NCBI RefSeq assembly: GCF_003205235.1
Contig: NZ_QJSM01000018.1
Location: 62,001 to 126,000, forward strand
Source of the DNA: Thermoplasma sp. Kam2015
GTDB taxonomy: Archaea; Thermoplasmatota; Thermoplasmata; Thermoplasmatales; Thermoplasmataceae
DNA: 64,000 nucleotides
Reading direction: 5' to 3'
Positions 49,566-53,241 of this stretch are shown here, in pieces; position 1 is the first letter of the stretch; each line of letters begins with the position of its first letter. Position numbers and translations under genes: made by a program. The notes beneath the pieces were generated by a model. That model saw nothing but the letters and a program-made list of their open reading frames with translations, searched no databases and was not told the DNA's origin.

Positions 49566-49712
49566 ATGGTGTTATATTGAATCATCTAATGTGCCTTTCT
49601 GTGATAAATGCTGTATAACTTATCAAATGAAACGTGGAAGGCTTTATCCAGGGCATTTTTTCATTTTGTATCTCTTCAGCAACGGTTTTTTCCATGCACG
49701 GATCTTAAATCT

Positions 49713-50111
49713 ATGGCAGGAAATCTACTGATAATTGACAATCTTGATACTGATTATCCCCTCGTCAGGGAAAGTTTGAGAGAATACGAGGAATATTCAC
49801 TGCTCATAACCGACGGTATAATAATGGATTTCTCTGAACTGCCTGATGGTGCAAAGATACAGCGCATATTGACTGTATATCAGCTCATCAGATCCATCGT
49901 TGACGGCCCTAACACTCCATATATAATACTGGCCAGATCTGATATAGTGAATTCCTGGCCATATCAGGATCTGGACAATCTCTACGATTCCATGAGGATG
50001 AAGACGTTCTATTCAGGCTGTGATATAATCTTTATGGTCGTTGGCGGGCGCCTGATCTTCAGGAATATGCTGCATGGTGAGGTTTATGGGGAGGAGTACG
50101 CCCAGTACTAG
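49713..50111 (+). CDS. Unknown protein, first gene of the divergent polymerase operon
   Basis: A 132-residue protein beginning MAGNLLIIDNLDTDYPLVRE. Alternating hydrophobic strands (YSLLITDGIIMDFSEL, TPYIILARSDIVNSW, CDIIFMVVGGRLIFRN) suggest an alpha/beta fold similar to a truncated RecA-type core, but no Walker A motif is present. Its end overlaps the next gene by 26 bases and that gene overlaps the polymerase, so three genes form one coupled operon. The frame is open from 49608, but those residues look non-coding. Family not recognised. Confidence 0.6.
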   Translation: MAGNLLIIDNLDTDYPLVRESLREYEEYSLLITDGIIMDFSELPDGAKIQRILTVYQLIRSIVDGPNTPYIILARSDIVNSWPYQDLDNLYDSMRMKTFYSGCDIIFMVVGGRLIFRNMLHGEVYGEEYAQY

Positions 50112-50325
50112 ACAGGCGATTGACAGCCTTATATCAAGAATGGAGGAGATGAAGAAGGTGATGCGTGCTGGCGATGGAGAAATTCTTGAAGAGCTGATCA
50201 GGTCTGGAAAGATGCATGCTGCAGAGATCTCCTATGCAGGCATTGATGTGGACTTTGGGCTTCTGTTATACATGCTTATAGAGGTGGTCAAACGTACATC
50301 GATGCCAGGGGATCGGATCAGGTGA
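50086..50325 (+). CDS. Unknown small helical protein, second gene of the polymerase operon
   Basis: A 79-residue, mostly helical protein (STRQAIDSLISRMEEMKKVMRAG, then GLLLYMLIEVVKRTSMPG). ATG 50086 follows GGTGAG by five bases; ATG 50074 is an alternative. It starts inside the preceding gene and its stop overlaps the polymerase start (GTGA), so expression is tightly coupled. Small partner genes upstream of a divergent polymerase recall the damage-inducible PolB2 operons of Sulfolobales, but homology is unproven. Confidence 0.6.
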   Translation: MGRSTPSTRQAIDSLISRMEEMKKVMRAGDGEILEELIRSGKMHAAEISYAGIDVDFGLLLYMLIEVVKRTSMPGDRIR

Positions 50326-52175
50326 CAGTTTATGAATACTCTGGCGGCAAGGTAAAGAAAAGGTTCTTCAGGAATACATCATGGATATTTGTTACTGGCG
50401 ATAAATATGATATGGACGCTCTTTATGCCCAGCTTGACTCGACTAATTTGAGGTATGAATACAGCACAATGCCGGATATCTATGGCTACAGGGATGGTAT
50501 AAAAATATGGATAAGACCATCACGCGCCAGGAGATTAGGCGATATAATCTTTTCAGCCATAGGCTATGGAAGAAAATACAGGGTATACAACGCAGATATA
50601 GATCCGGTGCTGCGCTTCATGGCTTCAAATGGGCTGTCCTTTTTTGAGATGCAGACTCCATACGATATGGATCCCGATTTGGATGTGGCGCTTGTAGAAT
50701 GCAGAAAGGGCGTATGCAACGTTGATGGAGAGCTGGTGAGTGAAAGCAAGTTTTATGATCGCATGATGGATGCCCAGGTCATAATATATGATGATCCAAC
50801 TCTATTCTACAGAAAACTGGACGCAGTCGGAATACGTGCAAGGTTTTATCCAGGGAGGTCTTTCATTTCATACGGGCAGATATCATACAGAGATTCGTAT
50901 CTTGACATCCCGGGTAAGATAGCAATAAATTCCAGATCCTTTTTCTATGCGGAAAGCGGCCTCAGTGGTATATACGAGGTATCCAGGGTCTCCTTCTTAC
51001 CGCCGCTTTATGTATCAATAGTGACGCCTGGAACGGCCGTCTCATCCATGGAACTTGCAGAGGCGGTTAGAAAGGGGATGCTTGTTCCATTCAAGAAGGA
51101 TGATCATGAGAATCCAAAGACCAAATACGAGATCATGGACAAGGACCGCGGTGGACTGATATTTCAGCCTTTGCCTGGAGTTTATACTGATGTGTACGAG
51201 ATCGATTTTTCATCCATGTACCCAAGCATAATAGTGAAGTACGGCCTCACCCCTGGCAGGATAGGGTTTTTACCGGAGGCCCTGGAGGGGCTCCTCAACA
51301 GAAGGCTTCTTTACAAGGCCATAGATGGAGATAACGACGTTTACCATAGCAGAAATGTTGCACTGAAGTGGCTTCTTCTCACGTCATTTGGATACACTGG
51401 ATATAAGAATGCAAAATTCGGAAAGATCGAGGTTCACGAGAAGATTACTGAAATAGGAAGAAAGACCCTGGCAGAGGCCATAGAGGTGGCGCATGAGAAC
51501 AATTTTGAGATGATACATGGGATAGTGGACTCGCTGTGGATAAGTGGATCGGGTGAAATAGACATGGTTTTAGCAGAGATAAAACGCCGCACCAGAATAG
51601 ATATAGTGCTGAGTGGTCATTACTGGTGGATCGCATTTCTGCCCGAAAGAGATGGAACCGGATCGCCATCAAGATACTTTGGTCTCGATCGGTCCGGTAA
51701 GTACAAGATACGCGGCTTGATGATCAGGCGTTCGGATGTACCGGAGATATGCAAGGTATTCCAGATGGATGCGCTTAAAATCCTCTCCGAATGCCACGAT
51801 CTGAACTGCATCCAGGAAAAACGATCGGAGGTAATGGATCTTGAGCAGCGTTACGTCAAGAATCTTAGGCATTATCCGCGTTCTTATTTCATCCTTTCCA
51901 GGAAGGTTACTAGGAGACCGGAGGAATACCACGTGAAGAACCTCACCAGATCCGCACTGGAGATCTACGACAGAAGTGCACAGATCATGCCGGGGCAGAT
52001 CATAAATTACTATGTTGTTGATGAAGGGAAGAGGATCGTAGACTTTGACGGAGAAGACCGGATAGACTACAAATATTATTCAAGGTATCTTGAAAGATCT
52101 TTTGAGGAGATAAACTTCCTCTTCGATCAGGATAAAAGGATCAGGCGTTTAGAAGATTTTCAATTCTCTCAGTGA
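50322..52175 (+). CDS. Divergent family B DNA polymerase (PolB2-like, degenerate motifs)
   Basis: A 617-residue family B polymerase, shorter than the usual 770-800. Motif A is intact: YEIDFSSMYPS with D295. Motif B is changed: K349-WLLLTSFG where Kx3NSxYG is expected. Motif C reads HGIVDSLW, keeping the catalytic second Asp (D403) but replacing the first Asp and Thr of DTD with Ile-Val. No convincing 3'-5' exonuclease Asp/Glu motifs are seen in the first 230 residues. It starts at GTG 50322 within the preceding gene. Proofreading is probably absent and polymerisation uncertain; a damage-tolerance or structural role is inferred. Confidence 0.85.
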   Translation: MTVYEYSGGKVKKRFFRNTSWIFVTGDKYDMDALYAQLDSTNLRYEYSTMPDIYGYRDGIKIWIRPSRARRLGDIIFSAIGYGRKYRVYNADIDPVLRFMASNGLSFFEMQTPYDMDPDLDVALVECRKGVCNVDGELVSESKFYDRMMDAQVIIYDDPTLFYRKLDAVGIRARFYPGRSFISYGQISYRDSYLDIPGKIAINSRSFFYAESGLSGIYEVSRVSFLPPLYVSIVTPGTAVSSMELAEAVRKGMLVPFKKDDHENPKTKYEIMDKDRGGLIFQPLPGVYTDVYEIDFSSMYPSIIVKYGLTPGRIGFLPEALEGLLNRRLLYKAIDGDNDVYHSRNVALKWLLLTSFGYTGYKNAKFGKIEVHEKITEIGRKTLAEAIEVAHENNFEMIHGIVDSLWISGSGEIDMVLAEIKRRTRIDIVLSGHYWWIAFLPERDGTGSPSRYFGLDRSGKYKIRGLMIRRSDVPEICKVFQMDALKILSECHDLNCIQEKRSEVMDLEQRYVKNLRHYPRSYFILSRKVTRRPEEYHVKNLTRSALEIYDRSAQIMPGQIINYYVVDEGKRIVDFDGEDRIDYKYYSRYLERSFEEINFLFDQDKRIRRLEDFQFSQ

Positions 52176-53241
52176 GTATGCTTACGGGTACGTCGTATAT
52201 GCTTATCATCTTCTTTACACCTTCACCGCGCCCCTGTCCTTCCAGTGTCGCACTTATCATACCGTTGTTCTCCAGTTTCCTGATCCTGTCATAGAGATTG
52301 ATGTCTCTCTTCCCATACTGTTCAGAGATCATGCTCAGATTCTGCGATACGCAATCTAGATCGGTGAATTTTGAAGAGGAAAGGCACCTGCATACGGCGA
52401 GCAGGACCAGTAGATCTTCGTAATCCATGGATGCAAGCTTGCTTTCGGTTACGAATGGACTTATCATGGATCTTGCGGCCCTGACATCATCAAAGCTGAT
52501 CTTTGCAGATCTCCTGTATTCGGCTATGTGCGCGGCCTTGGCCAGTATGTCTATGCCAACACGTGCGCTGCCGTACTCCGCCGAAACCTCAGCTATGTAA
52601 TCCAGCACATCGTCATCGTATCCTCCATCCACCAGAGACTGCAAAGCACGATTCACCACGATCTGATATATCTCATTCTTTGTGTATCTGCGAAACTTCA
52701 TCTCCCCAAACATTCCGTAAGATTTCCTGATCTTTGAATCGAAAAGTATGGCAGGATCTTCCATCACCACGAATATCGTAGATATGTTCACATCGAAGGA
52801 GTCCTTGGATCTGAAAAGATAGTAGAGTCCATCATAATCACCCTTCAGTATGTTGGAGGCCTCATCTATGACAAGAATAACGTTCTTTCCCTGATCCTTC
52901 AAAAGGCTCTCGATCCTTGTGAACAGGCTGGCATATGAAGATCTCTCCGGTACTATGATCCCGAATCTTGAAAGAAAATCAATGAGGACATTCTTCACAT
53001 ATCTGTAGGCGATTGCGTTGACATAGACAACATGAGGATCCTTAACCTCCCTTGCAAGATACCTCATTGTCACAGTTTTGCCCGTTCCAGAATCCCCATA
53101 AAGTATCAGATTGGTGGTTATGCCATTCTTAGTCGGTTTTATAACCGTTTCCATTATTCTGGTGAGTTCGGCATCCCTAGCTATGAGCCGCTCTGGTATG
53201 AACGATGATTCCAGTATGGATGGATTTATTAGGATGACCAC
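52141..53241 (-). CDS. cdc6: Orc1/Cdc6 family replication initiator ATPase
   Basis: A 366-residue AAA+ protein with Walker A GDSGTGKT at 49-56, Walker B VILVIDEA at 121-128 and a C-terminal winged helix from about 285. The sensor 2-like helix includes YGSARVGIDILAKAA. It starts at GTG 53241, 24 nt after TATA-like TTGATAAATATAA, a consistent leaderless GTG. Its 3-prime end overlaps the polymerase gene tail to tail by 35 bases. Only 30 bases lie upstream before the next gene, so no origin-like region adjoins it. Confidence 0.93.
   Translation of the reverse strand: MVILINPSILESSFIPERLIARDAELTRIMETVIKPTKNGITTNLILYGDSGTGKTVTMRYLAREVKDPHVVYVNAIAYRYVKNVLIDFLSRFGIIVPERSSYASLFTRIESLLKDQGKNVILVIDEASNILKGDYDGLYYLFRSKDSFDVNISTIFVVMEDPAILFDSKIRKSYGMFGEMKFRRYTKNEIYQIVVNRALQSLVDGGYDDDVLDYIAEVSAEYGSARVGIDILAKAAHIAEYRRSAKISFDDVRAARSMISPFVTESKLASMDYEDLLVLLAVCRCLSSSKFTDLDCVSQNLSMISEQYGKRDINLYDRIRKLENNGMISATLEGQGRGEGVKKMISIYDVPVSILTERIENLLNA

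Follow-up and report, generated by a model that had tools for sequence, protein, structure and literature searches.

The window, that is, the whole stretch of 64,000 nucleotides analysed here, comes from Thermoplasma sp. Kam2015 (source assembly of 1.79 Mb in 63 contigs), and its forward strand carries three consecutive genes: a 132-aa gene assigned below to iRadA (49713..50111), a 79-aa gene for PPB2 (50086..50325) and the 617-aa polymerase PolB2 with a GTG start (50322..52175). On the reverse strand, a second Orc1/Cdc6 paralog (52141..53241) with Cdc6_lid and AAA domains meets the trio tail to tail. Genes 1 and 2 overlap by 26 bp and gene 2 overlaps the polymerase by 4 bp, so translation of the trio is likely to be coupled, and the polymerase gene, with its stop, runs 35 bp into the 3' end of the convergent orc1/cdc6. 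An earlier note on this DNA had described the same coupled three-gene layout tail to tail with Orc1/Cdc6, and this was borne out, its coordinates, gene overlaps and motif statements all being correct on rechecking. A candidate regulatory box, GGCATTTTTTCATTTT, is found on the forward strand at 49652..49667, 61 nt before the iRadA start, a position that is conserved in relatives.

The third gene product was matched by Pfam DNA_pol_B (E=1.5e-17) and by the NCBIfam equivalog NF004416 (792 bits against a cut-off of 516), profile matches to PolB in the PDB reached 2e-61, and the fold matches of its predicted model (pLDDT 87) were archaeal PolB structures. Thus a family B polymerase core is present by Pfam, NCBIfam, PDB profiles and fold search. 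The protein is 99% identical to that of the nearest Thermoplasma MAG, and 77% and 60% identical to those of two same-genus genomes. The earlier note had placed it in the PolB2 group with a link to a damage-related neighbourhood, and the family searches and the literature (PMC4104785, PMC11791011, PMC7390963) agree with this.

Residues were compared in an alignment of PolB2 with the genome's own canonical PolB (L001). Motif A is DFSSMYPS in PolB2 versus DFKSMYPS in L001 and keeps the Asp D295 (codon at 51204..51206, forward strand). Motif B is KWLLLTSFG (residues 349-357; 51366..51392, forward strand), and in the alignment LKWLLLTSFG stands against IKVLMNTFYG, so that NTFYG has become LTSFG while K349 is kept, and in motif C (51522..51530, forward strand) GIVDS stands in place of GDTDS, with I401-V402-D403 for D-T-D; the first Asp is lost and D403 is kept. 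The altered motifs B and C were seen in both the family and the own-PolB alignments. In the alignment with L001, ExoI, ExoII and ExoIII had no counterpart in PolB2, the ExoIII-bearing stretch was missing and the exonuclease domain was reduced. All of these residue changes and the loss of exonuclease motifs had been stated by the earlier note, and we also looked for an intact DTD or exonuclease motif elsewhere in PolB2 and found none. Among 34 aligned relatives, D295, K349, V402 and D403 were invariant and I401 was at least 90% conserved; these substitutions are thus maintained by selection. The loop that precedes the palm also carries the D(K/R) motif, with an invariant D275 (D275-R276 in the window).

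The same residues raise the question of whether PolB2 is catalytically dead and serves with iRadA and PPB2 as a DNA-binding scaffold or fork-regulating factor, which is how the family was first interpreted (PMC4104785) and was implied when the earlier note called the polymerase degenerate. The replacement of the first catalytic Asp of motif C by Ile, the lost Asn of motif B and the loss of all exonuclease motifs fit this reading, but strong selection has preserved the Asp of motif A, the second Asp of motif C, the Lys of motif B and the polymerase fold, and Sulfolobus Dpo2, which has the same loss (IID), is reported to be active and needed for targeted mutagenesis (PMC11791011). The substitution at I401 is therefore no sign of inactivity, since in Sulfolobus islandicus these residues of PolB2 are 401-IID-403 and the enzyme is reported to be active (PMC11791011). 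The residue losses behind the description "degenerate" stand, and we regard a dead PolB2 as unlikely. PolB2 of Thermoplasma is most likely an active, proofreading-free lesion-bypass polymerase.

Many PolB2 relatives have a C-terminal tail whose sequence resembles a PCNA box, with better QxxLxx(F/W)F versions in QITLSKFF (L051), QRVLTSFF (L050), QSDLSWWF (L064) and RVSLEDWF (L063). The window PolB2 has a weak version, IRRLEDFQF (IRRLEDFQ, residues 607-614, at 52140..52163 on the forward strand), coded inside the orc overlap, and this weak tail may recruit PolB2 to the clamp. The 35 bp of overlap (52141-52175) thus code both for the PCNA-box-like tail and for the Orc C-terminus.

The earlier note had taken the two small genes as unknown, an unstudied accessory pair, which was wrong, because they are PPB2 and an inactivated RadA (iRadA) and have already been modelled in one complex with the polymerase. 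PPB2 is a small helical protein with the N-terminal arm MGRSTPSTR. Its MGR start was invariant in 34 of 34 aligned relatives and R9 was at least 90% conserved; the published PPB2 arm is "MGRT" with Arg3 and Arg9 (PMC11791011). By its sequence, the 79-aa protein is PPB2 (arCOG07300), as MGRS...R9 agrees with the published arm.

The 132-aa protein had no Pfam or NCBIfam match, and hhalign and hmmsearch gave no significant match between Thermoplasma-type iRadA and RadA, so a fold search was used. Its AlphaFold2 model (pLDDT 79, pTM 0.75) matched RecA/RadA folds in the PDB, RadA 2zud and Csm2-Psy3 5xyn (TMq about 0.5-0.66), and the Foldseek matches were RadA, Rad51 paralogs, RecA and the RecA-like part of BcsE (E 2e-5 to 1e-3). 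The P-loop motif is absent from the aligned sequences, the N-terminal domain is lost, and only D34, G35, R51, Q57 and W82 were invariant in 31 sequences. A longer iRadA in a more distant relative (L080) scored above the Pfam Rad51 cut-off and was aligned with RadA by hhalign (probability 94.5, E=8e-8), so it represents an intermediate form. The predicted fold, the gene order and this intermediate together suggest that Thermoplasma iRadA is an inactivated minimal RadA-like subunit of RadA origin.

The gene order iRadA-PPB2-PolB2 was found in relatives, with the trio in nearly all PolB2-bearing ones, and within the family nearly all PolB2-carrying genomes have both the trio and the convergent Orc. 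The absence of the trio from related genomes, which would have spoken against the earlier note, was thus checked and the trio was found there. A natural iRadA-PPB2 fusion of 219 aa was also found (L046:3366-4025), in which the MGRT-type arm is kept internally as VGRT. We conclude that the window operon is a PolB2 mutasome operon of the already described kind, PolB2 with two partner proteins. The divergent catalytic residues, the very short iRadA and the loss of the trio in a few related genomes might instead be taken as signs of decay, the trio being a remnant that no longer has a function, but all three reading frames remain open in about 40 genomes, with polymerase identity down to about 30-45%, the PolB2 and PPB2 motifs are invariant and the upstream box is conserved. 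The remnant reading is already contradicted by this conservation and we give it practically no weight.

Compared with the PolB2 (Dpo2) mutasome operons of Sulfolobales and other archaea and bacteria, iRadA-PPB2-PolB2 is one of the published orders (PMC11791011, PMC4104785, PMC7390963), and the window shares with them the first motif C Asp changed to Ile, the absent proofreading, the PPB2 MGR[TSN] arm with Arg9, the orc1/cdc6 neighbour and the PCNA-box-like tail. However, the window iRadA is only 132 aa and cannot be recognised by sequence, the Orc gene is convergent with its 3' end overlapping polB2, and a promoter box is described here. The Sulfolobus homolog is reported to have polymerase activity and to act in mutagenesis, and a model of the complex has been published (PMC11791011). 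An analogy with bacterial Pol V (UmuD'2C-RecA), in which an error-prone polymerase works with a RecA-family protein and a small arm-bearing subunit, has also been published (PMC11791011), but the Pol V polymerase belongs to family Y and not B, and the subunits are non-homologous except for the RecA/RadA fold. Taken as a whole, it is highly probable that the trio is the PolB2 mutasome operon. In the corresponding complex, PolB2 would be bound to one iRadA and a PPB2 trimer, iRadA would be a RadA-derived scaffold that has lost ATP binding, and the N-terminal MGRS arm of PPB2 would be inserted between polymerase, iRadA and DNA.

The genome has two main Orc proteins, the window Orc and L111, which are 25% identical to each other. 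Within the family (f1), orc1/cdc6 converges on polB2 in every PolB2 locus, mostly with a 3' overlap of 12-84 bp; f3 relatives keep the trio, with no orc gene inside the fetched stretch. When the window-type Orc was called at 200 bits or more, it was found in every PolB2 genome of the family and was absent from four genomes, all without PolB2 (G005, G022, G025 and G032; three of the four are incomplete, 68-85%). A single Orc was found in the f4 and f5 genomes searched, PolB2 being absent from f5 and kept in 4 of the 5 f4 genomes searched. The conserved adjacency to orc1/cdc6 could mean that the operon serves replication initiation, with the convergent Orc1/Cdc6 as origin binder and PolB2 at or near the origin, and Makarova and colleagues proposed a role in alternative initiation or origin regulation (PMC4104785). 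However, it is the other Orc (L111) that is of the type general in relatives, including those without PolB2, the second Orc was lost together with PolB2 in the family, and the damage regulator of Sulfolobales is a non-initiator Orc (PMC9738581), so we consider the initiation reading very improbable. The second Orc co-occurs with PolB2 and the box and is a candidate regulator.

The family consensus of the box is a tandem CTCATTTT-CTCATTTT, present at 26 of 30 loci 58-65 nt before the iRadA start, where a match allowed at most 4 mismatches to the 16-mer consensus; 0.6% of random windows matched this well. With a weight matrix derived from the very sites that it then scored, a value of at least 10 was reached by 27 of the 30 family sites against 1% background, and all nine f3 sites scored at least 6.9, but the box was not found upstream of iRadA in f4 (0 of 4) or f2 (0 of 1). 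By these counts the box goes with the second Orc in f1 and f3 and is missing from f4, where PolB2 is present and the second Orc is not; the exception is f2, which has the second Orc and no box. The exact pattern CATTTNYTCATTTT occurred 94 times versus 9 for its reversed form in 61 genomes, and 69 versus 5 times within the family. One relative (G004) had no good copy. In the window itself the box is degenerate and T-rich, and another window site and the reversed control scored equally, so it was rejected as a stand-alone finding and it is its conserved position that speaks for it. A box before the orc gene was seen in only three genomes (L039, L042, L043), and autoregulation was rejected.

In Sulfolobales the PolB2 operon is damage-inducible (PMC9738581, PMC5817253) and a non-initiator Orc is the damage regulator (PMC9738581). 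The Orc1-2/DDRE (ANTTTC) regulon there resembles the present case in having a candidate regulatory Orc paralog (PMC9738581, PMC5817253) and a T-rich, non-palindromic element upstream of the core promoter, and the family consensus box contains ATTTTC. However, the candidate box repeats an 8-bp unit in tandem, about 60 nt ahead of the start codon, and its variants CATTTACTC and CATTTGCTC break ANTTTC, so with this motif not strictly conserved we did not file the box as a DDRE.

The box was also found before other genes, and these targets, the PolB2 operon apart, vary between genera. In one related genome (G019) a nurA-herA-mre11 operon (L152:214-3400; NurA, HerA and calcineurin-like phosphoesterase by Pfam) has the box 66 nt upstream, radA, which follows a 43-aa leader frame, has it 309 nt upstream, and small-protein genes have it at about 60 nt. 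A box upstream of radA or nurA in general was rejected, since radA had it only in G019 and nurA only in G019 among the family genomes checked. Six of the 13 box matches of G019 have near-identical downstream sequence; they seem to be repeats of a single mobile element and do not count as independent. By eye, this repeat (L144, L146, L150, L151, L153, L154) is IS605/TnpB-like and carries the box upstream, as though a mobile element relied on this promoter signal too.

A protein search for one of the small-protein families found it in ten family genomes, and in each of the ten the box stood 66 to 90 nt ahead of the matched start, including two (G014 and G030) missed by the exact pattern. Members of 66-99 aa with the pattern LDxIRxLExERxGIxELRK...LYGYYLxWL follow the box at L156, L174, L177, L178, L182, L185, L186, L195, L201 and L202; they had no confident Pfam match, and in several genomes the next gene downstream resembles a class I aminoacyl-tRNA synthetase. 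A second box-linked family of 60-78 aa (GRKEQLxxDVxMIRDVA...) was seen at L143, L145, L157, L179, L189, L214, L284 and L285, sometimes with several copies per genome. At another locus (L180:209-2064, G034) three frames come after the box: one of 35 aa, one for a cytosine-5 DNA methyltransferase and one for an HhH-GPD DNA glycosylase.

The conserved box, its presence before repair genes and its absence in f4 without the second Orc suggest an Orc-controlled damage regulon. DNA damage would probably turn the operon on through the upstream tandem CATTT/TCATTTT box, and the likeliest regulator is the neighbouring second Orc1/Cdc6, although we hold damage control of the operon through box and Orc to be somewhat short of an even chance. 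Equally tentative is the wider proposal of a Thermoplasmatales DNA-damage regulon, in which the second Orc1/Cdc6 would act on a tandem operator of the consensus type about 60 nt before the start codon, with the PolB2 mutasome operon as near-universal family member and nurA-herA-mre11, radA, the 60-100 aa protein families and the mobile element as genus-specific ones. Our literature search found no description of a damage-response operator or regulon in Thermoplasmatales, so the new part of this analysis is the box with its co-occurring Orc, and the damage regulon built on them is a hypothesis that we would still bet slightly against.

The window operon adds Thermoplasma to the organisms with this known lesion-bypass machine, and it shows how far iRadA can shrink, to 132 aa, with the gene still kept. 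If confirmed, the more important result would be that the box, together with the repair genes that share it and the co-occurring Orc paralog, provides a concrete candidate for a damage-response regulon of Thermoplasmatales, which, if true, would be a euryarchaeal counterpart of SOS.
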